Source: Acidobacteriota bacterium (GTDB lineage Bacteria > Acidobacteriota > Thermoanaerobaculia > Gp7-AA8). From it: 45,094 nucleotides of DNA. A program made the translations under genes and the position numbers. Where the stretch lies: positions 1 to 45,094 of the forward strand of contig JAOBAU010000254.1 of the NCBI GenBank assembly GCA_025463165.1, given 5' to 3'. Positions 2,209 to 23,265 of this stretch are shown here, piece by piece. Under the pieces are notes generated by a model. It saw only the letters and a list, made by a program, of their open reading frames with translations. It was not told where the DNA came from and made no database searches. Positions within the stretch are counted from its first letter, which is position 1. Each line of letters starts with the position of its first letter.

Positions 2209-3516
2209 TCAGGCGGCGAGTGCCGGCGTGTGAGTGCGCGGAAGTCGGGTGTCGCGCAACGAGCGCATCAGCGCCCACCGCGTCAGTAACTGCGCGACGA
2301 CGCGACTCTCGCGTTCCGGTGTGAGCAGACGATCCTGTTTCGCCTGTCCGAGCACCGCGAGCGCAAGGGTCGGCGAGAGCGACTGCAGGCCGTCGACGAG
2401 CGGGCGCGATTCGCGGAAGATGCGGCGCAGCCGCGCGGGCGTTCGTTGCGCGAGCTCGAATGCGCTCGCGAACGGACGTCCTTTCATCGCCGCCGGCCGA
2501 TGCTCCGCCAGCAGGCGAAGGAACTCCGACATCGTCGCTTCGAGTGCGGCGATGATTCGCAGGCGCTCCGCATCGAGGCCGGTGCGTGGATAGAACGATT
2601 CCCACATCCGCACCAGCTGCCCCCACTGCGGATCGGGATGCAGCATCGCACCCGCGGCAGCGGAGAGCTTCACGCGAATCCACGGGAACGGATGAGGGTC
2701 CTCGGTGTCGAGACGGAAGACGATGGCGCGCGGCAGGCTGACGACGTTCATCAGTCCCTGCGTCGCCGCGACGCCGAGCTTGCCGACCGACCAGAAATCG
2801 GCGGCGATCTCCGAGATCCAGCGCTCCCACAACTGCCATGCGATGCGCTGTTCGGCGGGACTTTGCCGCTGCTTCGCCTTCAGGTCCGTGCGCAATCGCG
2901 GCAGAAGATCGAGCAGCGCCGCCGCCTGATGTCCGACTTCGTGTACGAGCGACGATGCCACGCCGCTGCCGACCATCCGTTCGCGCGGCATCCGAATGAC
3001 GGCGACAGGATTGTCGCCGCCGCCCGGCAAGCGCGCGCGGACGCGGCGGATTGCGGCGCCGTGTCCGCGGTCGAGATAGGTGATGACCGGCGGGCGCGGG
3101 AAGGAATCATCGCTGCCGATCGCCAGCGCGTCATCGGCAACGACGTCGAGACCGCCGAGCCAGACGCCGTTGCCGACTTCGGCGCGCAGATTCAGCGCGT
3201 CCGCGAAGATGTCGAACTGCGTCAGCGCGACGTTGAAGCGCAGTTTCAGAATTGCGAAGCGGTGCTGCGCGTGCGCCGCGCTCGCGCCGCGTCCCTCCGG
3301 CGTGCGCAGCCACTGAATGTAATCCTTGATGCGGTGACGCAGCCGGCGCCGGCCGTCGATCAGATAGTGCTCGATGGCGTGCGCCGCCTGGTCGGAGATC
3401 CGCGCCGCGGAGACCATCGGCATCGCCAGTGCGAACGGCTGCACGTTGGCGAGCCTCGTCTGCAGCGCGCGCGCTTCGAGCGTCAGCGTTGCGGCGACGT
3501 AAGAGGGGAGCGCCAT
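2209..3516 (-). CDS. HEXXH metallopeptidase-like protein
   Basis: This is a 435-aa protein with SSLVHEVGHQAAALLD in the first half, a canonical HEXXH zinc site. About 45 residues later comes EIAADFWSVG, a plausible third ligand in the E-x-x-A-D form seen in gluzincins. No signal peptide is visible. The C-terminal ~150 residues are helical and Arg-rich. Its ATG overlaps the TGA of the upstream acidic glycine-zipper gene by one base (TGATG), which indicates coupling. A protease placed directly after two small paralogous proteins suggests it processes them or their targets, but this is inference from position. I cannot assign a MEROPS family. Confidence 0.75.
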   Translation of the reverse strand: MALPSYVAATLTLEARALQTRLANVQPFALAMPMVSAARISDQAAHAIEHYLIDGRRRLRHRIKDYIQWLRTPEGRGASAAHAQHRFAILKLRFNVALTQFDIFADALNLRAEVGNGVWLGGLDVVADDALAIGSDDSFPRPPVITYLDRGHGAAIRRVRARLPGGGDNPVAVIRMPRERMVGSGVASSLVHEVGHQAAALLDLLPRLRTDLKAKQRQSPAEQRIAWQLWERWISEIAADFWSVGKLGVAATQGLMNVVSLPRAIVFRLDTEDPHPFPWIRVKLSAAAGAMLHPDPQWGQLVRMWESFYPRTGLDAERLRIIAALEATMSEFLRLLAEHRPAAMKGRPFASAFELAQRTPARLRRIFRESRPLVDGLQSLSPTLALAVLGQAKQDRLLTPERESRVVAQLLTRWALMRSLRDTRLPRTHTPALAA

Positions 3517-5007: not shown

Positions 5008-5622
5008 ATGTCTCATTCGATTCGCACGCTCCTGCTCTCGCTCGTCGCCGTCGCTCTCGCTGCACCCGTTTTTGCGTACAACGTCGTCAACACATCGTGG
5101 ACGGTCCAGTGCCTCTTCAGCACGAGCTGCAGCGTCACCGTGACGGACTACGTTGCGGAATTCGCCGTCAGCGGAGGCAGCGGCAATGGCCGATTGCAGT
5201 CTCGCGTGTATCAGGGCCAGCCAGGTTCCACGGCCGCGGGCAAGTGGATCTACGAATACCGCATCAACCTCGGGCCGGTCGGCGGCATCGTGAATGTCCC
5301 GTACGCCGACCAGCTGGCGATCGCGTCGTGGGGAACGGTTCGCCAATACGACTACAACTCCGACAGCGTCGCCACCGATCATGTGTTCAACATCACCAGC
5401 GGCGGCCTCGGCACGAAGGCCGTGACGTCCGCGTTTCTCTCGGCGCCGTGGTCGTACTTCGTGTTGAGCAATCCCGTCTACGCCGGCAACTTTCCGGGCG
5501 GCGGCGAGAGCAGCTATTTCTTCGGCCTCGTCTCCGACCAGGCGCCGGTCCTGCGGACGGTTTGGGTTCACACCGACAGCGGATGGGTGTCCATGACCGG
5601 TTACGCGCCGCCGCTTCCGTAA
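5008..5622 (+). CDS. Secreted protein of unknown function
   Basis: The track offers two overlapping plus-strand ORFs here. The 5008 ATG, preceded by GTGGAGGAAG, gives a 204-aa protein with a clean signal peptide: charged MSHSIR, a hydrophobic core, and an APVFA cleavage site. The mature part is rich in Ser, Gly, Tyr and Val, with a likely disulphide pair (CLFSTSC) and a beta-strand-like pattern. This is typical of a small extracellular or periplasmic beta protein. I do not recognise the family. The gene converges on the cytosine methyltransferase, and the two 3' ends overlap by 22 bp. Function is unknown. Confidence 0.78.
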
Positions 5623-6641
5623 TGCCGATTTGCGAGTGCGGATGCGCGGGTGTCGCCGCGCATCCGCTGCTCCCTCAACCCGCTCGCTTTTGACGCAAGT
5701 GCGTCGAGCACCGCGCGGCCGACCGCTTCGACGACCGGCACGACGACCGAGTTGCCGAACTGTTTGTAGGCCTGCGTGTCGGAGACGACGATCTTGAAGG
5801 AGTCGGGATAGCCCATCAGCCGCGCGCATTCACGCGGCGTGAGTCGGCGCGGAGTGGCGGCGCCGCGTCGCGGGATGAGGATCTCGGAACCGTCTTTGTA
5901 GTAACGCGCGCTGAGCGTGCGCGTGATGCCGTCGAGCTTCGCGAGTCCGAAGCCGAAGCCGTTCCCGGCCGCCTGATGTTTGCGCGCGTAATCCTGCAGG
6001 TACTGCCACAGCTTGTCGCTCAGGCCGTACTTCGCGTCGACGCCTTTCTGCAGGATGTCGCGCAGCGGCGGCGAGTCGTTCGTCCAGCGCGGAAAGTCGA
6101 ACGCGCGCGGCTCGCGAAAGCCGACGATGAAGATTCGTTCGCGATGCTGCGGCACGACGTGCTTCGCATCGAGCACCTGAAAGTGGACGTCGTATCCAAG
6201 GTCTTCTTTCAGCGTGCGATGGATGACTTCGAAGGTGCGGCCCTTGTCGTGCGTGCGGAGGTTGCGGACGTTCTCGAGGATGAACGCGCACGGGCGATGT
6301 GCGTCAACGATGCGCGCGATCTCGAAGAAGAGATTTCCCTGCGTCGGATCGGCGAAACCGTGCGGACGGCCGAGACTGTTCTTCTTCGACACGCCGGAGA
6401 TCGAGAATGGCTGACAGGGAAACCCGGCGGTGAGGATGTCGTGCCGCGGGATGTCGGCCGCGTCGATCTGACGAATGTCGCCCGCCGGCTCGTCGCCGAA
6501 ATTCGCGGCGTAAGTCTGTCGCGCGAAGCGATCCCAGTCGGACGAAAAGACGCACGTTCCGCCGAGCCGCTCGAGCGCGATCCGGAAGCCGCCGATGCCT
6601 GAGAAGAGGTCGATGAAACGAAAGGGACGGGTGGGTGACAT
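5601..6641 (-). CDS. dcm: DNA (cytosine-5-)-methyltransferase of an EcoRII-like R-M system
   Basis: This 346-aa enzyme would transfer a methyl group from SAM to C5 of cytosine in its recognition site. The motifs appear in order: motif I ([10 protein letters not shown]), motif IV with the catalytic cysteine (GFPCQPFS), motif VI (ENVRNL), motif VIII ([11 protein letters not shown]), and motif X near the C-terminus ([12 protein letters not shown]). The target recognition domain lies between VIII and X. It is divergent from vsr and the EcoRII-type endonuclease across a 111-bp gap, the usual neighbourhood for a Dcm/EcoRII system. The site is probably CCWGG-like, inferred from its partner rather than read from the sequence. 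The last ~30 residues after motif X look like a non-conserved tail. Confidence 0.95.
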
Positions 6642-12958: not shown

Positions 12959-15900
12959 ATGGCGTCATTGCCGCTCGAGCTGCACGAAGTCCTCGAACAG
13001 GAGTACGTGTCGATGTACGGGCCGCTGAACCGGCCTGATTACGGCGAGCTGTACGATTCGGAGCAGATCGTCGACGTGGATTGGGCGGAGCGGATTCTCG
13101 TTGCGTGCGGCATCGGGAAGACGTCGCCGGCGCAGGACGCGGCGGTCGCCGAAGATCGCGAGTACGCGGGAGCGGCTCTGGCGGGGAACGTGGCGGCGCA
13201 AAAAGCTGACCGCGCGAGCAAAGCCGCATCGGACGCGACAAAGAACCTCAGAGAGAAGCTGCGGATCGCCGGTGCGGTGACTGATGAAGGCGAAGCGGCG
13301 CTGGAGCGAGCCGTCGTGGCTGAAGGAGCTGCTGGCGCGGAGACCGCGGCGGTCTCAAGGCGACGCGAGATCGCGCAGCTTCTCTCGAAGCTCGTCGCGA
13401 CCGATGCCTGTCCGAATCTCGCCAGCTCTCCGGCGCTCACCGCGCGGGGACGGTTGCTCATCGAACAATACGGCTCCTTCATCGACGTCGCCTCCACGAG
13501 CGCTCACGGCGCGCGCGAGCTGCGGCGCACCATCGTCGATGAAGCGTTTTCCGGCGCCGTGAAATCGCTGCGCGACATTCGCCTCGAGAACGTCTACTCA
13601 TCGCTGCACGGCCGCGCGAAAGAGAAGAAACCGCGCACCGCGCTCTGCATCTCCGGCGGCGGCATCCGCAGCGCGACGTTCGCGCTCGGCGTCATTCAGG
13701 GACTGGCCAGCGCCGGCGTGCTGAAGAAGTTCGATTTCCTTTCGACGGTGTCGGGCGGCGGATACATCGGCAGCTGGCTGTCATCGTGGACGCGCCGTCA
13801 TCGCGACGGCATCGCCGGCGTCGAAGACGATCTGCAGCGCGCCGACACCGCGGTCGCCAGGCGCTGGCCGTATCCGCCATCGGCAAAGGACAACGTCGTC
13901 TATCCGAGCGCACAGACGACGCCGCGCGAATTGCCGAAATCGAAGATCGATCCGGAGCCGCGGCCGGTGCGCCATCTGCGCGAGTACAGCAACTACATGA
14001 GTCCGCGCCTCGGGTTGCTCTCGCCTGACTCCTGGACGCTGGCTTCGATCTACGTCCGCAATCTGTTGCTCAACCTGCTCGTGCTCGTGCCGATCCTCGC
14101 GGCCGTGCTCGCGTATCCGCGTCTTTACAGCTATCTGCTCGCGCGCAGCCGTTTCCTCGATCCGCTTGTCCTTCCGTGGATCTTCGCCGGATGCGTCGCC
14201 ATCGGATTCGCGTACATCGGCGTGGCGAGGCCGGTCGCATACGGCGCCGCCGCCGAGCGAAGGAAGCCGGGCTCCGCGAACGTCCGCTACTTCCTCTTCT
14301 GCGTGCTGCCGCTCACGGCGGCCGCGTTCGCGCTCACCATTTTCTGGGCGCGCGCATACAGAAACTCGAACATCCTCTGGCATGAGTGGACGCTCTACGC
14401 GGTCATCGCGTCAGTTCTCGCGATGACGCTGCTGCCGCACACGCTTTACTACGGCCGTTACCGATCGGCGCTTGCGTCGGTTCGCCGCAGCGGTTTCATC
14501 AGCGACAACGAGCTGTTCGCGGCGGGTGCGAAGAAGAGTTTCCTCGAGCTTTTCGCCGTATCGATCGCGCTCGCAACCTCGGCGGCGCTCTACTGGCTGC
14601 TGGCAAACAAAGTCTTCTACGATCCGCTGCGTCCGACGCCGCGCCTGACCGAGCTGCCGCCGCTGCTCCGCTTCGGACTGCCGTCATTTCCGCAGCAGCA
14701 GTTCTACGTTTGTTTCGCGGTGCCGGCGGTGCTGCTCGTTTTCTACATTCAGGCGAGCGTCTTCGTCGGACTCTCCAGCCGGAGAAATGATGATGCCGAT
14801 CGCGAATGGTGGGGACGCGCCGGCGCCATCGCGCTGATGATCACCGCCGCGCTGGCGCTCGGCAGTTTCATCGCCGTCTTCGGTCCGGTCGCGCTTTACA
14901 ACGCGCCGGTCATCCTCGGTTCCATCGGCGGCGCGGCCGGCATCGGCGCGGCGCTCCTCGGGTTCAGCGACAAGACGCCGGCCAATCAGAAGCAGGAAGA
15001 GAGCAAGACCGACGTCGCCGGGAAAGTCGCATCGGCGCTGATCGTGCCGCTCTTCGTCGTCTTCCTCCTCGCCGCGATCTCGCTCGGGTCGACGTGGCTG
15101 ATCCAGAACTTCCGGACAGCGGCTCCCGATGCGTCGGCGCTGCCCTGGAGCGCCCTGGTGAACTTCCAGTCGGCAGTGTCGCGCACGTCGCAGGTCGTGG
15201 CGCTTGGCTCGACGTATGAGGTGAAAGAAACGGTGCCGGCGACGGCGCGGACGACCGTGCCGGAACTTCGTACCGCCGCTCATCTCGCCACGATCGAGAC
15301 GACGACGCGAACGGAGCTCCTCTTTTTCGCGCTGGTCGGACTCGTTGCCGTCGCTCTCTCGTGGTCAATCGGCGTGAACAAGTTCTCGATGCACGCCCTC
15401 TATCGCAACCGCCTCATCCGCGCGTACCTCGGCGCGTCGCGCTACAACCGCGATCCCGATTCGTTCACCGGCTTCGACGAGAACGACAACCTGCAAATGT
15501 GGGAGCTGCGCCGCGAGATGCTCTGGTCTTCGTCGATCGTCGACGTCGTGAAGTTCATCAATGCGCTCCAGCGTGAGGGGGAGCTCCAAACGCATCTCTG
15601 GAACAAGCTCTCGCCGAAGACGCGGGAGCTCCTCAATCGCAAGCCGCTCGATTCGGCTGCGCCCGATGCGCTCGTGCAGAACCTCAACAACATCCTGCTG
15701 ACCGACGATCTGAAGAGCGTTGTCAAGCCACCGACGTGGGCCGCCGTCAAAGAGAACGAGCTCGGTTACTCGCGACCGTTCATCAATCGCGCGATCGTCG
15801 ATGCGAACTTCCGCGATCACATTCGTCCGATGGCGCGTCCCGATGACAGGAAGGACAAGGACGATCAATCGTCGCGGCCGCCGATGCACGTCGTCAACGT

Positions 15901-16861
15901 CGCGCTCAATCTCACCAGCGGTCAGGACCTCGCGTGGCAGCAGCGGATGGCGGAGTCGTTCACGGTTACGCCGCTGCATTCAGGGAGCTTCTATCTCGGC
16001 TATCGCAATTCACGCGAGTACGGCGGACCGGACGGCATCTCGCTCGGCACCGCCGTCGCCACGTCGGGCGCGGCCGCCAGTCCGAACATGGGCTATCACT
16101 CATCGCCGCTGATGGCGTTCCTCCTCGCGTTCTTCAACATCCGCCTCGGGTCGTGGTTAGGCAATCCCGGACTGCCCGGACAGGACTCGTACGCGGAAGC
16201 GCATCCGAGCTCGAACCTCGTGCCGCTCTTCGCCGAAGTGATCGGCTCGACGAACGATCAGTCGAAGTGGGTCTATCTCTCCGACGGCGGGCACTTCGAA
16301 AATCTCGGCCTCTACGAAATGGTGCTGCGGCGCTGCCATCGCATCGTGTTGAGCGACGCCGGCGCCGACCGCAACTTCTCCTTCGAGGATCTCGGCAACG
16401 CCATCCGAAAAATTCGCACGGACCTCGGCGTCCCGATCGACATCGAGAACATGGACCTGATGACGCCGCGAGCGGATGACGGCTCGTTCGCGGAAGGACG
16501 CTACGTCGCACGCGGCTCGATTCGTTACAGCGCGGTCGACAAGAACGCGGAAGACGGAACGCTCATCTACATCAAGGCCGGCATCTATAAGGACGCGTGG
16601 TTCCCGCGCGACGTCTACAACTACGCGAAGGAATCGCTCGCCTTTCCGCACGAGCCGACGAGCGATCAGTTCTTCAGCGAGTCGCAGTTCGAGAGCTATC
16701 GCGCCCTCGGGCGTCACGCCATCAACGAGATCTCCGACAACTATCCGACGCAGGCGGCCGCCGATGCGCGGCTGGAGATCATCGCCAAGACGTTCGACAG
16801 CGTCGATTCGTTCATCAGCGTTGCACAGCAAAACTCGGGACCGCGAGTGAAACAGGCGTAG
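12959..16861 (+). CDS. Giant membrane-anchored patatin-like phospholipase
   Basis: This 1300-aa protein is several times the length of usual patatins. The oxyanion-hole GGGIR is at 233-237 (CISGGGIRSATFALG). The nucleophile Ser265 lies in TVSGGGY, a GxSxG variant (SGGG) used by large bacterial patatins. The catalytic Asp is at about 1109 in LSDGGHFENLGLYE. Between them lies an insert of over 800 residues with about nine or ten hydrophobic segments (roughly residues 360-800) and a soluble stretch. The N-terminal 180 residues are helical and Ala/Glu-rich. The start follows CCCGGAGGTC. It is predicted to hydrolyse phospholipid or lipid acyl esters at the membrane. It converges with the methyltransferase gene 4 bp away. 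Confidence 0.88.
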   Translation: MASLPLELHEVLEQEYVSMYGPLNRPDYGELYDSEQIVDVDWAERILVACGIGKTSPAQDAAVAEDREYAGAALAGNVAAQKADRASKAASDATKNLREKLRIAGAVTDEGEAALERAVVAEGAAGAETAAVSRRREIAQLLSKLVATDACPNLASSPALTARGRLLIEQYGSFIDVASTSAHGARELRRTIVDEAFSGAVKSLRDIRLENVYSSLHGRAKEKKPRTALCISGGGIRSATFALGVIQGLASAGVLKKFDFLSTVSGGGYIGSWLSSWTRRHRDGIAGVEDDLQRADTAVARRWPYPPSAKDNVVYPSAQTTPRELPKSKIDPEPRPVRHLREYSNYMSPRLGLLSPDSWTLASIYVRNLLLNLLVLVPILAAVLAYPRLYSYLLARSRFLDPLVLPWIFAGCVAIGFAYIGVARPVAYGAAAERRKPGSANVRYFLFCVLPLTAAAFALTIFWARAYRNSNILWHEWTLYAVIASVLAMTLLPHTLYYGRYRSALASVRRSGFISDNELFAAGAKKSFLELFAVSIALATSAALYWLLANKVFYDPLRPTPRLTELPPLLRFGLPSFPQQQFYVCFAVPAVLLVFYIQASVFVGLSSRRNDDADREWWGRAGAIALMITAALALGSFIAVFGPVALYNAPVILGSIGGAAGIGAALLGFSDKTPANQKQEESKTDVAGKVASALIVPLFVVFLLAAISLGSTWLIQNFRTAAPDASALPWSALVNFQSAVSRTSQVVALGSTYEVKETVPATARTTVPELRTAAHLATIETTTRTELLFFALVGLVAVALSWSIGVNKFSMHALYRNRLIRAYLGASRYNRDPDSFTGFDENDNLQMWELRREMLWSSSIVDVVKFINALQREGELQTHLWNKLSPKTRELLNRKPLDSAAPDALVQNLNNILLTDDLKSVVKPPTWAAVKENELGYSRPFINRAIVDANFRDHIRPMARPDDRKDKDDQSSRPPMHVVNVALNLTSGQDLAWQQRMAESFTVTPLHSGSFYLGYRNSREYGGPDGISLGTAVATSGAAASPNMGYHSSPLMAFLLAFFNIRLGSWLGNPGLPGQDSYAEAHPSSNLVPLFAEVIGSTNDQSKWVYLSDGGHFENLGLYEMVLRRCHRIVLSDAGADRNFSFEDLGNAIRKIRTDLGVPIDIENMDLMTPRADDGSFAEGRYVARGSIRYSAVDKNAEDGTLIYIKAGIYKDAWFPRDVYNYAKESLAFPHEPTSDQFFSESQFESYRALGRHAINEISDNYPTQAAADARLEIIAKTFDSVDSFISVAQQNSGPRVKQA

Positions 16862-16864
16862 TCA

Positions 16865-17878
16865 TCATGAGCGCGTAACTTCAATGAGCAGCGTCAGGCC
16901 GGTTTCCTCGCGCGTGATCGAGATTTCATGCGCGGGGATGCCGGCCGCGTCGCAGTAGCGGCGGATCTCCGCTTCGCTGCGCTCGATCAGGAACCAGTCG
17001 CCGAAGTATTCGATCAGCGGGCGATATGGGTTCCCCTCGGCGATGTTGGTGAAGAAGAACGTGCCGCCTGATTTGAGCAGCGAGTACGAGTGCTCGATCA
17101 GATAGATGGCGTGCTTTTCCGGGAGGTAGTCGAAGAGGCCGCCGGCGAGGACGAGATCGAAGATCGGGCCGAGCTGCGCGATCTTGCGGACGACTTTCAG
17201 CGCGTTGCCGGGCCGATAGTGCGAACGATCGCGGATCGGCGCGAGCGCACGCGCGGAGAACGAAAGCGCGTCGGCGTCGTTGTCGTTGAGCCAGAGTTCG
17301 CCGAGGAGTGAGGGGAGGTGCGCGGCGATGGTGCGGAGATCGGGACAGCTGCCGCAGGCGACAGTGAGCACGCGCGCGCTGCCGGGATGTTCGAGCAGCG
17401 TGCGCATGATGCGCGCGGCCTGATGCTGCACTTTGTTGCGATGCTGTTGCGCGATGGAACGGCTCAGCGCATACGACTCGCAGAACCACGGCAGTGTTCC
17501 TTCCTCGGCGCGATTGGTGGCGCTGCAGAGATGCTCGACCGTTTCGAAATCGCCCGGATAGGCGCGCGGCCATTCCTGCAGGCGCTTTACGAAAGGTGAG
17601 CGCGCGTGAATGCGTCGGACAGGCTCGAGCACTTCGACGATCTCCGCGCGCGTGTAGCCTGCCTGTTCGCAGGCGACGATCGCGGCGCAGAGTTGATGAA
17701 CGACCGCCAGGACGCGGTGATACAGCTCCTGCCTGCCCGCGTGTTCCCCTTCGAGCGCGACGAACGTTTGGACGTGCGCACGAAGAGCATCAACCTCATC
17801 TTCGGAACGGGACGTGGATCCGACGAAGCGGTTTGCATGAATCGCCATCACCCGGTTTCCTCTCACGTGAAGTTCCAT
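16865..17878 (-). CDS. Class I SAM-dependent methyltransferase, PhcB-like
   Basis: The C-terminal two thirds form a Rossmann methyltransferase. Motif I reads VLTVACGSCPDL, followed by a D-N-D acidic loop (LWLNDNDADAL), a post-motif DLVLAGGLFDYLP, and LLKSGGTFFFTNI. The N-terminal ~130 residues are helical and include YPGDFETVEHL and an HRNKV helix. This arrangement resembles proteins annotated as 3-hydroxypalmitate methyl ester (PhcB-type) biosynthesis enzymes. The link to a fatty-acid methyl ester signal is a recollection of annotation, not proof. It lies 47 bp downstream of the unknown 274-aa gene and may be the last gene of the sigma/CHAT operon. Confidence 0.75.
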   Translation of the reverse strand: MELHVRGNRVMAIHANRFVGSTSRSEDEVDALRAHVQTFVALEGEHAGRQELYHRVLAVVHQLCAAIVACEQAGYTRAEIVEVLEPVRRIHARSPFVKRLQEWPRAYPGDFETVEHLCSATNRAEEGTLPWFCESYALSRSIAQQHRNKVQHQAARIMRTLLEHPGSARVLTVACGSCPDLRTIAAHLPSLLGELWLNDNDADALSFSARALAPIRDRSHYRPGNALKVVRKIAQLGPIFDLVLAGGLFDYLPEKHAIYLIEHSYSLLKSGGTFFFTNIAEGNPYRPLIEYFGDWFLIERSEAEIRRYCDAAGIPAHEISITREETGLTLLIEVTRS

Positions 17879-17925: not shown

Positions 17926-18750
17926 TCAGGGGTAGGTGGTGGCCGAGCAGGCTTTGTTGAGGGACTCCGGATGGCTCGAGTCGTGGCTGTGCTCCAGCCG
18001 GAGCTTCATCTTGCTGATCGGATGCTTGCACTCCCCCGGAGGCGGTTCTTTATCGAGCAGTTTGAAGTGGAGGTACCAGTCCTTTTCGCCGCCGGCCGAG
18101 CTGTGGTTGCCCGGCTTGTCAATGGCGTCGTGCTTCATCATGTTTATGATCGCGATCTGCGCGCCGGCAGGTACGACAATCCTGTGGTTCGCTCGCGTCG
18201 TCGATTCGATGGTTACCTCGTCGATGTGGACCTCGGGCTGCGGAACGTTGAGCATCATCGTTCGCATGTCGTTGAACTCCGGTATGCCTGCGAGCTGGCC
18301 CGTCTTGATCGTGAGTGTGGCGGCCGAGTTGTCGTGCGCCTTCGTGGCGATCAGCTTTGGGGTGGTAGTAGTCCCGAAAAACTTCTTCAGCCGCGGTACA
18401 AGGCCGAGCGACGCGGTAACCGCCACGCCGTCGTCCAAAGTGCTGACGCCGGTGATGGTGAGATCATCGTGGTCGAGTTCGTACAGAAGGCAGTGATCCT
18501 TATGCGGATCCGGTCCTTCTGTTTCACACGGGATGGCTGTCTTGCTCTCCCATATGGCGCTGACCGCGTCGCCGACGATGCGGAGGTACGCGTGATGTTC
18601 CGGGATGTCCGCGTCGCAGACTTTGACTACGTGAGTGTCGTCGCCGGGCGTGGCGTCGACGGCGAACATCGTGTAGTTCACCTTGCCGTTTGTCCCAAAC
18701 GTATGAAAAAGCAGCACGAGTCCGATGAACTTGATCGTGATGAGATCCAT
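17926..18750 (-). CDS. Unknown 274-aa protein downstream of the CHAT gene
   Basis: I do not recognise this protein. Its N-terminus is mildly hydrophobic (IKFIGLVLLFHTFG) but is not a classical signal peptide. The rest is rich in His, Asp, Thr and Val in alternating patterns that suggest beta sheet. Short acidic runs (DATPGDDTH, ELDHDDLTI) and four or five Cys occur. Its start follows AAGGAGGAGGAACTT only 18 bp after the CHAT gene, so it is almost surely co-transcribed. In TPR-CHAT systems the neighbouring gene is often the protease target or partner, so this is a candidate substrate, by inference only. Confidence 0.72.
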   Translation of the reverse strand: MDLITIKFIGLVLLFHTFGTNGKVNYTMFAVDATPGDDTHVVKVCDADIPEHHAYLRIVGDAVSAIWESKTAIPCETEGPDPHKDHCLLYELDHDDLTITGVSTLDDGVAVTASLGLVPRLKKFFGTTTTPKLIATKAHDNSAATLTIKTGQLAGIPEFNDMRTMMLNVPQPEVHIDEVTIESTTRANHRIVVPAGAQIAIINMMKHDAIDKPGNHSSAGGEKDWYLHFKLLDKEPPPGECKHPISKMKLRLEHSHDSSHPESLNKACSATTYP

Positions 18751-18768
18751 AAGTTCCTCCTCCTTCTC

Positions 18769-21700
18769 TCAGCTCCCGATGGTTTGAATCGCCGCCCAGA
18801 TCGACGGCGGTAACGGCGCGGTACCGCGGATCGCGTCGATCTGTGCTTCGCGCACGGCCTCGCCGGCGGACACTCCGCGCGCGAGCCGCCGATGAATGCG
18901 AACGAACATCGGCGCCGCGAGGCGGTCGTCGATCGGCCAGAGCGTGGCGATGACGGACGGCGCGCCGGCGGCGAGAAACGCGCGTGCGACGCTGTCGACT
19001 CCTTCGCGTCCGCTTCGCTCTCGCGCCGCCGCGGTGCTGCATGCAGCAAGTACGACCGTCCGCACGACAGGCAGCGACAGCGCGGCGATGTCGCGCGTAT
19101 CGACGATGCCGGAGTCGCCCGCACTCGACGCGAGGAGCAGCGCCGAACCGGCACGCGCATCCGTGATGCCGTGTCCGGCAAAGTGCACGACATTCGCGTC
19201 GGTCACCTCGCGCTGCAATGCGGCGCGTGACGCGGCGGCGCCAGTCAGTCGCGTCACCTTGGCGTAGAGCGGCGCGATCTCCTCCGCTTCGCCGGTGTCG
19301 AGCGGCACGTCGCCGCGCTTCGGCTGCGCGACCAGCAGCAGCTCGTTCGAGGAGACGCGCGTCTCGCGACGCTTCAGCGCTTCGCTGTAAACGGCGGCGC
19401 TCGGCGCGACGATCACCGCGTGATCCTCAATGAGATATCGCCTGCTCTGCGGATCGAACAACGCGCTGAACGCGACGCCGTGCAGCGCGCCGTCGGGAAC
19501 GACGACGAGCGTCGGCTGCCGTGCGATCCGCTGCGCGATCGGCGCGATGAGCAGCGCGTGGAGTTGCGCGCCGCTCGTTGCGTCACCGCGCTCGAGCGAT
19601 GAACGGAACGTTGCCACGAGGCTTTCGATCGTCGAACGATTGGCGACGATCTGCACCACTGTTACTCCGCTGCGATCGGCCGCGAAGACGACGAGGCGGT
19701 CGCCGAGCCAGACATATTCGAGTAGTGCGGTGCCGGCGGGAAGCGAAGCGGGGAGGCGGGCGGGCGGAGCGGACGAAAGCGTATCGAGCAGCACGCGCGA
19801 ACGCGCACGATCGGCAAGCGCGAGCGCGGCCGCGGGATCGCCGCGCGCCACGAGCAGGTCGACCGACTCGGCGACCACTTCCTGCGACGCGTCGAAGATC
19901 GCCCAGCGCAAATCACCCTTCGGCGCGGCGGCGCGCTGCTGCTCGACCTCCGCAAACGCCTCGGCGAGCACACGCGAGGCCGCTTCGTTCTCTCCGCGAG
20001 CGCGGTGCATCCGCGCACGCGACAACAGCAGCGACGGCAGGAGATCGCGGCGTCCTCGCGTCCGGTGAAACTCAATGGCGCGATCGATCCCTTCGGCCTT
20101 CGACGGGACGATGATCGCCGCCGCCGCGGCACGATCGACCTGCTCCCGTTCGCGCGTCGGCGCATCGGCGATCGACGCCGTCACCGCGTCGGCTTCACGC
20201 AGCGAACGGAGCGCGTCATCAGTCACCCCGCGACGGAAGTCGACGAGCGCGCGGCGTTCCAGTGCGTCGGCGAGAAGCTGCTTGTGATCGATGGCTCGCG
20301 CCGCCGCGATCTCGATGCGCAGCAGCGAATCGGCCGCGTCCCAGTCGCCGTCGTGGATCGCGTTTCGCGTCGCTGCCGCGAGCGCTGTCAGGCCGCGCTC
20401 GTTCTGTTCCGCGCTGACGATCGGCATCGCGGCGATGCGATGCCGCCATGCCTCGCTGCTGTCGCCGAGCGCTTCGAGCACGTCGGCGGTGATGACGTCG
20501 ACGGAAGCGGCGTTCGTTCGCTCGCCGAGTTGCGTGAAGAGCTCACGGCTGTCGTTGAGCGCTTCGAGCGAACGGGTCCAGCGCGTTTCGGCGCCGTGGC
20601 AAAGTCCGAGCTCCCACTGCACGTGCGCGCGCAGCGCGTGATGCGATGGCGCGATGGACGCCAGGATCGGCTCGAGCTGCGCCTTCGCTTCGTCGCGCCG
20701 ATCCTCATCGAACGCCGCACACGCCGCGAAGTAGCGAGCCGCCTGCGTCATCGGACTCTTCGCCGCCGCGAACAGCTCCGCCGCTTTGCGCAGCAGCGGC
20801 TCGGCGATGGATGGCTGTTGTTTGCTGTACGCGATGCGGCCTTCGCGATAGATGCGGTGCGCGTCGCGAAGCCGTGCGTCGCCGCCATCGATCGCCGCGA
20901 CGGCATCGGCGAGCATCGTTTCGCCGCTGCGCTGCGCGAGTGCGGCGCCGAGCGCGCGCGCGACCGCCAGATGCTGCGCGGAACCGTCCGCCGCCCAGCG
21001 GCCGAGGATTTCGGCTTCGCCCCAGGTGCGCGCATCCTGCGGAAAGGAGGTCACGAGCTCGCGCGCTGCTTCTTCATCACCGGAAGCCAGCTTCGCGTAT
21101 CGGCGATCGAGCTCGTCGCGGAAACTGGCGCGCGGACGGGAGAGTGTCGCCAGATGCTCGCGCGCTTCATCGGCCCACTGCGATTTCGGATCGACGGCGA
21201 GGTATTGCTTCCACGCATCGGTTGCCGGTTGCACGAGGCCGAGCCGCTGGAGGATCAGCGCGCGATTGAAGAGCGCTTCCGGCGACTCGCGCTCGAGCGC
21301 CAGCGCTTTGTCCGCCGCTGTCAGCGCGCCCTTCAGCTGTTCAGGCGAATCGTCGCGCATGGCGGCGGCGTAGCGCGCGGCAGCGAGATCGTTCCAGACG
21401 TGCGCATCATTCGATGCGCGTGCGGCGGCTTCGAGCTCGCGAATGGCATCGTCGCGCTGTTCCGTCAAAAGCTGCGCGACACCGGCCGCGTGCCGCGACT
21501 CCGGCGACGTCGAAGTGCGCGCTTCCTGCAACACCAGGCCGGCGGCGCCGGTGAGCTGCATCTGTTCCGTGTCGGCCGGCTCGCCGCTGCCGCGCGTCAC
21601 GTGCAGAGGTGCCCAGGCGAAGCCGCTCAATCGCACTTCCAGCTCGCGGTGCCCGGTCGGTGCGGCGGCGATGAGTCGCTGCATCGGATCGTGTTGCGCC

Positions 21701-21966
21701 TGGAGACGGATCATCCAGATCGCGCCGGCGACGATGACGATCGCCGCGGCGGCGGCGAGCCACCACGGCGCGGACATTTCTCGCGGCGCCGCGGCGCGCA
21801 CTTCGTCGCGCGAGACCGCGGCGGCATCGCGTAGCAGCGCGCGGCACTCCATGCAATCGCTCAAATGCTCCGTCACCGACATGAGGTCCGCGCCTTCGAG
21901 TCCGCCTTCGATGAAGGCGGCGAGCTCGTCGGGCTCAGGATGTCGGCGCGATGCGGGTGTGCTCAT
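18769..21966 (-). CDS. Anti-sigma ZAS-TM-TPR-CHAT fusion protein (caspase-like)
   Basis: The domain order is clear. Residues 9-50 carry a zinc-binding anti-sigma (zf-HC2/ZAS) motif, H34-x3-C38-x2-C41, in VTEHLSDCMECRALL. One transmembrane helix spans 68-86. A long helical TPR region runs from ~120 to ~720. A C-terminal CHAT caspase-like protease domain follows, with the catalytic dyad His932 (HFAGHG) and Cys976 (LAACST), then FLAAGAPSVIATLWP. Its start overlaps the sigma factor stop (ATGA). The N-terminal module probably binds the adjacent sigma factor, and the TPRs sense a partner. This is a membrane anti-sigma factor fused to a protease; whether CHAT cuts itself or a target is unknown. Confidence 0.92.
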   Translation of the reverse strand: MSTPASRRHPEPDELAAFIEGGLEGADLMSVTEHLSDCMECRALLRDAAAVSRDEVRAAAPREMSAPWWLAAAAAIVIVAGAIWMIRLQAQHDPMQRLIAAAPTGHRELEVRLSGFAWAPLHVTRGSGEPADTEQMQLTGAAGLVLQEARTSTSPESRHAAGVAQLLTEQRDDAIRELEAAARASNDAHVWNDLAAARYAAAMRDDSPEQLKGALTAADKALALERESPEALFNRALILQRLGLVQPATDAWKQYLAVDPKSQWADEAREHLATLSRPRASFRDELDRRYAKLASGDEEAARELVTSFPQDARTWGEAEILGRWAADGSAQHLAVARALGAALAQRSGETMLADAVAAIDGGDARLRDAHRIYREGRIAYSKQQPSIAEPLLRKAAELFAAAKSPMTQAARYFAACAAFDEDRRDEAKAQLEPILASIAPSHHALRAHVQWELGLCHGAETRWTRSLEALNDSRELFTQLGERTNAASVDVITADVLEALGDSSEAWRHRIAAMPIVSAEQNERGLTALAAATRNAIHDGDWDAADSLLRIEIAAARAIDHKQLLADALERRALVDFRRGVTDDALRSLREADAVTASIADAPTREREQVDRAAAAAIIVPSKAEGIDRAIEFHRTRGRRDLLPSLLLSRARMHRARGENEAASRVLAEAFAEVEQQRAAAPKGDLRWAIFDASQEVVAESVDLLVARGDPAAALALADRARSRVLLDTLSSAPPARLPASLPAGTALLEYVWLGDRLVVFAADRSGVTVVQIVANRSTIESLVATFRSSLERGDATSGAQLHALLIAPIAQRIARQPTLVVVPDGALHGVAFSALFDPQSRRYLIEDHAVIVAPSAAVYSEALKRRETRVSSNELLLVAQPKRGDVPLDTGEAEEIAPLYAKVTRLTGAAASRAALQREVTDANVVHFAGHGITDARAGSALLLASSAGDSGIVDTRDIAALSLPVVRTVVLAACSTAAARERSGREGVDSVARAFLAAGAPSVIATLWPIDDRLAAPMFVRIHRRLARGVSAGEAVREAQIDAIRGTAPLPPSIWAAIQTIGS

Positions 21967-22802
21967 CGCGAGATTTCCTCCTGTGCGCCCGCGCTCGTCG
22001 TCTCATTACCGGTAGACGGACGGACGGCTTTATTTCGCAACTCGAACTCCAGCCGCACGCCGCGCGCCCCGATGAGTCCGTCAACATCCTCGGCGCCAAC
22101 TCCGGCGCGTTCCAGCTCCGCGCGAACGCCGTCGAGCCGCCGCTGAATGCGGCGATAGAGCTGCTTCGGATCGAGGTGCAACGAGCGCGCGATCTCCGCG
22201 ACCGTCATGCCGGAATCGAATCGCAGCTGCAGCACGAGCCGGTCGTCGGCCGGCAAGCCATCGATGAATGCGCGGACGATCGGCGAGAGACGATCGGACA
22301 CACGCTGCGAATCGTGATCCGGCGGCGGCGCTTCATACGCGACTGCCTGCGCTTCTTCGAGATCGACGAGCCGCCGTTTCGGCGGACGCGCCGGCAGTCG
22401 CGCCAGCAGCGAATCGAGGTCGGCGCGTGTCAGCGACGGATCGCGCTGGCGGAGAACGCCGAGCGCTTCATCGACCGTGCGGCCGTCGCGATGCACGAGC
22501 ACTTCGAGCGCGGTCGCGGTGTCGCCGAGGCGTTTCGCTTCGCTGGAGGTGTGCCATTTGCCCCAGAGATGGATGCGATGATCGAGCAGCATTCGCTGTA
22601 CGACGACGGCGAGATAGGTCGCGAAACTGCTGCGGGCCGCGAACTTCCGGATGATCGCGTAATCGTTTTCGATGAGCCGCAGTTTGACGACCGACGCGAA
22701 TTCTTCCGCCTCGGTGTCATCGAGACGCTGCGCGCGGCAGATGTAGGCAACCACCCGCTCGACGAGCGCAAGGTTCTCCTCCAGAAACTGGCGAGCGTTC
22801 AC
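21963..22802 (-). CDS. Sigma-70 family (ECF-like) RNA polymerase sigma factor
   Basis: Region 2 is visible at residues ~10-85 (VKLRLIENDYAIIRKF, SSFATYLAVVVQRMLLDHR). A helix-turn-helix region 4 is at ~185-240 (LPADDRLVLQLRF, TVAEIARSLHL). At 279 aa it is longer than a typical 180-200-aa ECF factor because of a ~90-residue linker and a tail of ~40 residues. The start is GTG at 22802, 11 bp after GGAGAG. It overlaps the CHAT protein gene by 4 bp. That protein carries an anti-sigma zinc domain, so this factor is probably held at the membrane until a signal arrives. No target promoter can be read from the window. Confidence 0.88.
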   Translation of the reverse strand: MNARQFLEENLALVERVVAYICRAQRLDDTEAEEFASVVKLRLIENDYAIIRKFAARSSFATYLAVVVQRMLLDHRIHLWGKWHTSSEAKRLGDTATALEVLVHRDGRTVDEALGVLRQRDPSLTRADLDSLLARLPARPPKRRLVDLEEAQAVAYEAPPPDHDSQRVSDRLSPIVRAFIDGLPADDRLVLQLRFDSGMTVAEIARSLHLDPKQLYRRIQRRLDGVRAELERAGVGAEDVDGLIGARGVRLEFELRNKAVRPSTGNETTSAGAQEEISR

Positions 22803-22908: not shown

Positions 22909-23265
22909 ATGCCGGACGCAGTCATCGATTCGAAGGCGAAATGGAACCGAACCGGGATCCAGGTTACGGCTGGAACGACCTATCGCCTGACGGCCAGCGG
23001 TCAGTGGTGGGACGCCAGCCATCAGTGCGGACCCGACGGATACGACGATCCGAAGCTGGCGCGCTACGTTCGCTGGCGGCGATTCGTGTCGGCGAAATGG
23101 TTCACGCTGATCGGATCGGTCGACGGCCGGCACGAGTTCGTGATCGGCAGCGGCACGACGTGGAAAGCGCCGGCCGGCGGCGAGCTGCGCTGCTACGCGA
23201 ACGACGTCGCGATCATGTACTGGAACAACAAAGGAAGCGTGACGCTGAAGGTGGAAGCTCAGTAA
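22909..23265 (+). CDS. PA-IL/LecA-like lectin-fold protein
   Basis: I start this at ATG 22909, preceded by ATCGGAGGATGCG; the track's earlier start at 22843 has no such site. The 118-aa product matches the LecA (PA-IL) galactophilic lectin layout. It has GTTYRLTASGQWW, CGPDGYDD and TLIGSVDG, then WKAPAGGELRCYANDVA and YWNNKGSVTL. In LecA the calcium and galactose ligands include ND and NN pairs near the C-terminus, and both pairs appear here (NDV and NNKG). There is no signal peptide, as in LecA. It is divergent from the sigma/CHAT operon across 106 bp. The sugar specificity is unknown. Confidence 0.8.
   Translation: MPDAVIDSKAKWNRTGIQVTAGTTYRLTASGQWWDASHQCGPDGYDDPKLARYVRWRRFVSAKWFTLIGSVDGRHEFVIGSGTTWKAPAGGELRCYANDVAIMYWNNKGSVTLKVEAQ

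Follow-up and report, generated by a model that had tools for sequence, protein, structure and literature searches.

The sigma factor gene and the CHAT gene in the 45,094-nucleotide stretch of DNA analyzed here (the window) are a pair of the DdvS/DdvA type, which is ordinary in kind and has an architecture that has already been described. The new part is a partner gene family, here called D, which recurs beside these inhibitors throughout the phylum and is more testable than the sigma/anti-sigma pair. The sigma factor is probably held at the membrane by its partner and freed when a TPR-CHAT portion outside the cytoplasm senses a signal, likely through D. Presuming sigma binding, membrane topology, a role for D and release, this is the best explanation of the observed architecture, recurrence, linkage to sigma and D, DdvA homology, and conservation and loss of the catalytic dyad.

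The sigma gene (21963-22802, reverse strand) has a GTG start and encodes an ECF-like factor of 279 aa. It matched the TIGR02937 sigma70-ECF model with 60.2 bits (cut-off 42.9) and Pfam region 4 (Sigma70_r4_2) with 32.5 bits (cut-off 25.7), while region 2 gave a weak match; the sigma factor adjoining a CHAT paralogue on contig C372 is 41% identical to it. Its stop codon and the start of the CHAT gene share four bases (ATGA); an overlap of the two genes had been claimed in a first-pass annotation made from the sequence alone. In a search with a simple GAAC...CGT/GTC pattern, the sigma genes had no ECF promoter in common ahead of them, which leaves autoregulation without support. Adjoining the sigma gene, 22912-23265 encodes a divergent 117-aa protein (VIDSKAKWNRTGIQV...), for which Pfam gives no match and which we take to be reminiscent of LecA-like lectin domains.

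The CHAT gene (18769-21966, reverse strand) encodes a 1065-aa transmembrane anti-sigma factor with a predicted extracytoplasmic, DdvA-like TPR-CHAT part, as assigned by Pfam, AlphaFold2, Foldseek and profile searches. Its CHAT domain scored 183 bits against a Pfam cut-off of 24. The ZAS zinc motif (H34-LSD-C38-ME-C41, 21844-21867, reverse strand) gave 17.3 bits with zf-HC2, under the Pfam cut-off of 22.2, and the protein gave a sub-cut-off 19.4 bits with the ChrR-type anti-sigma model TIGR02451; H34, C38 and C41 are invariant across five paralogues of the same genome, two of which pass the zf-HC2 cut-off. Hydropathy and positive-inside analysis place a single transmembrane helix at residues 68-86 (21709-21765, reverse strand; residues 70-91 in the model). 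The AlphaFold2 model (pLDDT 85.9) consists of N-terminal helices (12-58), the transmembrane segment (about 68-91), TPR helices (133-730) and the CHAT domain (738-1065), and motif and model helices together constitute the N-terminal ZAS/anti-sigma domain that is a feature of DdvA-type factors. The catalytic-type residues are His932 in VVHFAGHG (codon 19171-19173) and Cys976 in VVLAACSTA (codon 19039-19041), both on the reverse strand; the aligned columns hold His and Cys, respectively, in 39 of 43 family members, and both residues together are kept in 39/43 aligned CHAT domains. These results confirm that ZAS, membrane helix, TPR region and CHAT domain with an intact His/Cys dyad are joined in one protein, as first annotated. 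The product very probably serves as membrane anti-sigma factor to the sigma factor encoded next to it, with the cognate pairing deduced from their linkage.

In positive-inside statistics on 23 ZAS-TM proteins, 95 K/R residues flank the transmembrane helix on its N-terminal side versus 52 on its C-terminal side. This excess predicts that the ZAS lies inside and the TPR-CHAT part outside, in the extracytoplasmic space beyond the single helix. Lipobox-like or lipoprotein-like starts were found in the ZAS-less TPR-CHAT proteins of L082, L076 and L067, and the apparently exported D proteins of several loci also fit this orientation. The model, hydropathy and positive-inside analysis thus agree on the DdvA-type order of one transmembrane helix followed by TPR and a C-terminal CHAT domain on the predicted far side.

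DdvA is the transmembrane anti-sigma factor of the ECF sigma factor DdvS in Myxococcus xanthus and has a cryo-EM structure (PDB 8ROT and 8RW5). In Foldseek searches, 8RW5 was the best PDB match of the CHAT protein model (E 7.9e-19), ahead of separase and Csx29, with a TM-score of 0.70 by target length and 18% identity in the structural alignment. The family profile A6 matched DdvA with an E value of 7.8e-41 across the anti-sigma domain, TPR and CHAT, and both methods therefore indicate full-length homology; the ECF sigma gene expected of a DdvA-type factor lies adjacent at 21963-22802. As DdvA has the same architecture, dyad included, the suggestion that this is an undescribed system does not hold.

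The pair recurs widely. The same genome has 12 CHAT matches and at least five sigma/ZAS-TM-TPR-CHAT modules, with four further full paralogues (29-37% identity) on contigs C372, C157, C105 and C39, each with sigma directly upstream, and a sixth relative on contig C186 without ZAS or sigma. Of 297 genomes of the phylum, 55 matched an N-terminal profile at E <= 1e-10, many of the weaker ones through the TPR part only, and a scan of named genomes gave five loci; the named loci of the family are from Acidobacteriota MAGs, including a Thermoanaerobaculia bacterium. With sigma genes called by an iterated profile built from relatives of the 21963-22802 sigma factor, such a gene immediately precedes 38 of 40 ZAS-bearing family ORFs versus 1 of 35 ZAS-less full-length ones (Fisher p 8e-18, recognised duplicates removed; the loci are related rather than independent, and p is indicative only). 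In a second set of loci (L131-L150), picked after the pattern had been seen, every ZAS protein again had an upstream sigma. The linkage between ZAS and sigma is not due to chance. Other fusions of this kind, which the first-pass annotation proposed to search for, do exist, and a sigma gene flanks nearly all rather than all of them.

At six loci (L070-L073, L080 and L081) the upstream gene is sigma-like but different, and the CHAT protein has a zinc-less helical domain at its N-terminus. Pfam support is weak for three of these sigma-like proteins; judged by sequence, our guess is that the six represent a Blastocatellia-like group. The sigma-like proteins also carry ECLxxCL...CxxxC motifs. Split versions, in which sigma is accompanied by separate ASD-TM-TPR and TM-TPR-CHAT proteins, were found at L065, L067, L077, L079, L133 and L141, which suggests a partnership between the two halves. 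In the family tree, a quick one with long branches, fused, split and sigma-less forms are interspersed, and at least eight changes on well-supported branches are needed to explain them. A single origin of the fusion was therefore rejected in favour of repeated gain or loss as the likelier history.

The range 17926-22802 also holds a third conserved gene, which the first-pass annotation had not mentioned. Gene D (17926-18750, reverse strand, 274 aa) lies directly downstream of the CHAT gene and belongs to an unrecognised, fast-evolving family that is a candidate ligand or substrate. D members align poorly (15-20% identity). Leave-one-out profiles of 34 members nevertheless recovered most of them with E values of 1e-7 to 1e-39 (5.4e-7 for the product of 17926-18750), with clear recovery failing for about nine of the most divergent. 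Judged from these profile matches, the D members form a genuine family, with an N-terminal F.G motif, a His, a Gly and a C-terminal Cys as its invariant or near-invariant features. No convincing match to the family was found in Pfam, NCBIfam, PADLOC or the PDB; one single member matched DUF5119 weakly (E 6e-4), and the D profile did not match PDB sequences, including a Csx30 entry. The structure model is moderate (pLDDT 65), and its best Foldseek matches had probabilities of at most 0.07. Identification of D as a bacterial gasdermin or a member of another known family was therefore rejected.

Immediately after the CHAT gene, D was detected at 40 of 60 full-length loci, some of which belonged to the training set of the D profile, and these include 22 of the 34 loci without ZAS and sigma. 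In the same genome D occurs at five places, each adjoining this CHAT family, in a search that used a loose first filter and a profile that these five copies had helped to build. At two places elsewhere (L110 and L111), the stretch available around the D gene holds no CHAT neighbour. Outside the phylum, a plasmid of Gemmatirosa kalamazoonensis (Gemmatimonadota; NZ_CP007129, L151) has D after a TPR-CHAT gene (E 9e-10), a pair with no sigma gene. L051 (11253-12869) encodes a fusion of a D domain with a Peptidase_C14 (caspase) domain at the C-terminus (23.6 bits, above the Pfam cut-off), and at L065 (2072-8834) one gene run comprises sigma, ASD-TM-TPR, a C14 caspase, D and TM-TPR-CHAT. Tandem D genes (282-1178 and 2552-3463) were noted downstream of one CHAT gene at L071. 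Some D proteins are apparently exported, with Tat signals in L060-L062, L066 and L068, a lipoprotein signal in L052 and a signal in L110; most, including the product of 17926-18750, have no recognisable signal peptide. Among candidates for a ligand or substrate of the CHAT sensor, we infer D to be the best.

Forty-seven bases after D is a SAM-dependent methyltransferase-like gene (16865-17878, reverse strand; Methyltransf_12 E 1e-4, below the cut-off), which may be co-transcribed with D. Elsewhere in the window, 12959-16861 encodes a protein of 1300 aa that has several hydrophobic stretches along with a patatin-like phospholipase domain, and 5601-6641 encodes a C-5 cytosine DNA methylase (293 bits).

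According to the best explanation, the N-terminal zinc anti-sigma domain would keep the sigma factor at the membrane from the cytoplasmic side, and the single transmembrane helix would join this domain to an outer TPR solenoid and a CHAT sensor of caspase fold. An outer signal, most likely involving the D product, would inactivate the anti-sigma domain and free the sigma factor; D would be either a ligand or a substrate of CHAT, its processing in the latter case serving to report an event. Several observations count against this explanation: the ZAS match is below its cut-off, identity to DdvA is 18%, and most D proteins carry no signal peptide, which sits badly with a role as an extracytoplasmic partner.

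In a different, Craspase-like mechanism, the CHAT dyad would, on a signal, cut its own chain between the anti-sigma domain and the TPR region, and this cut alone would free the sigma factor. Such self-cleavage, proposed in the first-pass annotation, is consistent with the intact dyad of the 18769-21966 protein and of 39/43 family CHAT domains, and the sigma inhibitor Csx30 of type III-E systems is indeed cleaved by a TPR-CHAT protease (PMC10028731). However, the CHAT domain is predicted to lie across the membrane from the ZAS, and because one outside cut would spare both the ZAS and the transmembrane helix, further proteolysis would be needed for release. Moreover, both dyad residues are lost in four fused homologues (L060, L061, L062 and L066) that form one monophyletic clade. 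These retain the ASD-TM-TPR-CHAT architecture and the downstream gene D, and a sigma gene is present at L060, L061 and L062 (in two pieces in L062), that is, in three of four, with none detected beside L066. In one genome that is 98% complete (G285), the sole CHAT protein is a dyad-less one. Dyad-dependent self-cleavage is therefore not required everywhere, and as many members keep the dyad without an anti-sigma domain or a sigma gene, the dyad must be selected for something else too. We consider it quite improbable that self-cleavage alone accounts for release. CHAT-dyad cleavage may contribute in proteins with an intact dyad, such as the 18769-21966 protein, but it cannot be how release happens in every case.

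The dyad could also serve mainly to process D. The true CHAT substrate would then be D itself or a target bound by D, with the anti-sigma domain reporting D binding or cleavage and ZAS-less CHAT-D pairs acting without transcriptional output. The retention of the CHAT-D pair in the 22/34 ZAS-less, sigma-less loci and in Gemmatirosa, the C14 caspase fused to D at L051 and adjoining it at L065, and the fast evolution of D (frequent in exposed partners) all point this way. Yet the dyad-less clade keeps D where no cleavage is expected, most D proteins have no export signal and no cleavage site is identifiable, which leaves this a tentative possibility on the doubtful side. Alternatively, TPR-CHAT might be a ligand-binding sensor only, with vestigial catalysis and with release by site-1/site-2 proteases or by conformational change. 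Loss of the dyad in one clade that keeps the architecture and D, with sigma in three of its four loci, fits a pseudo-enzyme, but the dyad is kept in 39/43 otherwise very divergent members, so catalysis must be under selection in most lineages, which makes this reading unlikely.

For DdvA-type anti-sigma factors, the inactivating signal has yet to be identified (PMC4374960). D, which is conserved beside the sensor even without sigma or dyad, is a concrete candidate for this signal or for a substrate, and the natural dyad-less versions reveal steps that are independent of proteolysis. We tentatively suggest, at somewhat less than an even chance, that sigma, anti-sigma-TM-TPR-CHAT and D constitute a three-component module in which extracytoplasmic caspase-like sensors have D as their dedicated ligand or substrate, with or without transcriptional output, in Acidobacteriota and Gemmatimonadota.

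Compared to known systems, the pair is most similar to DdvS/DdvA. The two Myxococcus xanthus proteins were reportedly the subject of Abellon-Ruiz et al. in 2014, and the DdvA structure was reportedly described by Bernal-Bernal et al. in Sci Adv in 2024 (eadp1053). DdvA contains a ZAS (HLADCEKC), one transmembrane helix, TPR and CHAT in the same order, both dyad residues (LATHG and LAACEG) and a cognate ECF sigma factor; it differs in being distant from the 18769-21966 protein, as the low structural identity indicates. DdvS controls an antiphage island with CBASS and CRISPR (PMC12288465), whereas no defence gene was found among the scanned ORFs of the window, for which PADLOC gave no match above the thresholds used except a weak CHAT match to BovA.

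Type III-E CASP systems (Craspase; Cas7-11, Csx29, Csx30 and CASP-sigma) likewise combine a TPR-CHAT protease with an ECF-like sigma factor and its protein inhibitor, and Csx29 appears in the fold search of the CHAT protein, more weakly than DdvA (E 3e-12 versus 8e-19). Csx29 and Csx30 are cytoplasmic. Here, in contrast, inhibitor and CHAT are in one membrane protein, with CHAT predicted to be extracytoplasmic. With the Csx29 model, whose cut-off is 300 bits, this protein scored 12.4 bits and nothing in the genome passed, and the window has no CRISPR-like repeats (no 20-mer occurring three times). Membership in the Craspase group was rejected on the Csx29 score, the predicted topology and the fold ranking, and the comparison with Craspase drawn in the first-pass annotation is a weak analogy, more distant than that with DdvA.

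The ECF54 group also has CHAT-domain proteins in its genetic context, as beside the 21963-22802 sigma factor, and proteolytic control has been proposed for it (PMC8999054); ECF54 is described as being without an anti-sigma factor, whereas an anti-sigma domain is present here. Finally, the proteolysis-activated RseA/DegS/RseP and RsgI systems share the plan of an N-terminal cytoplasmic anti-sigma domain, one transmembrane helix and an extracytoplasmic sensor, but in the protein described here the sensor is TPR-CHAT.
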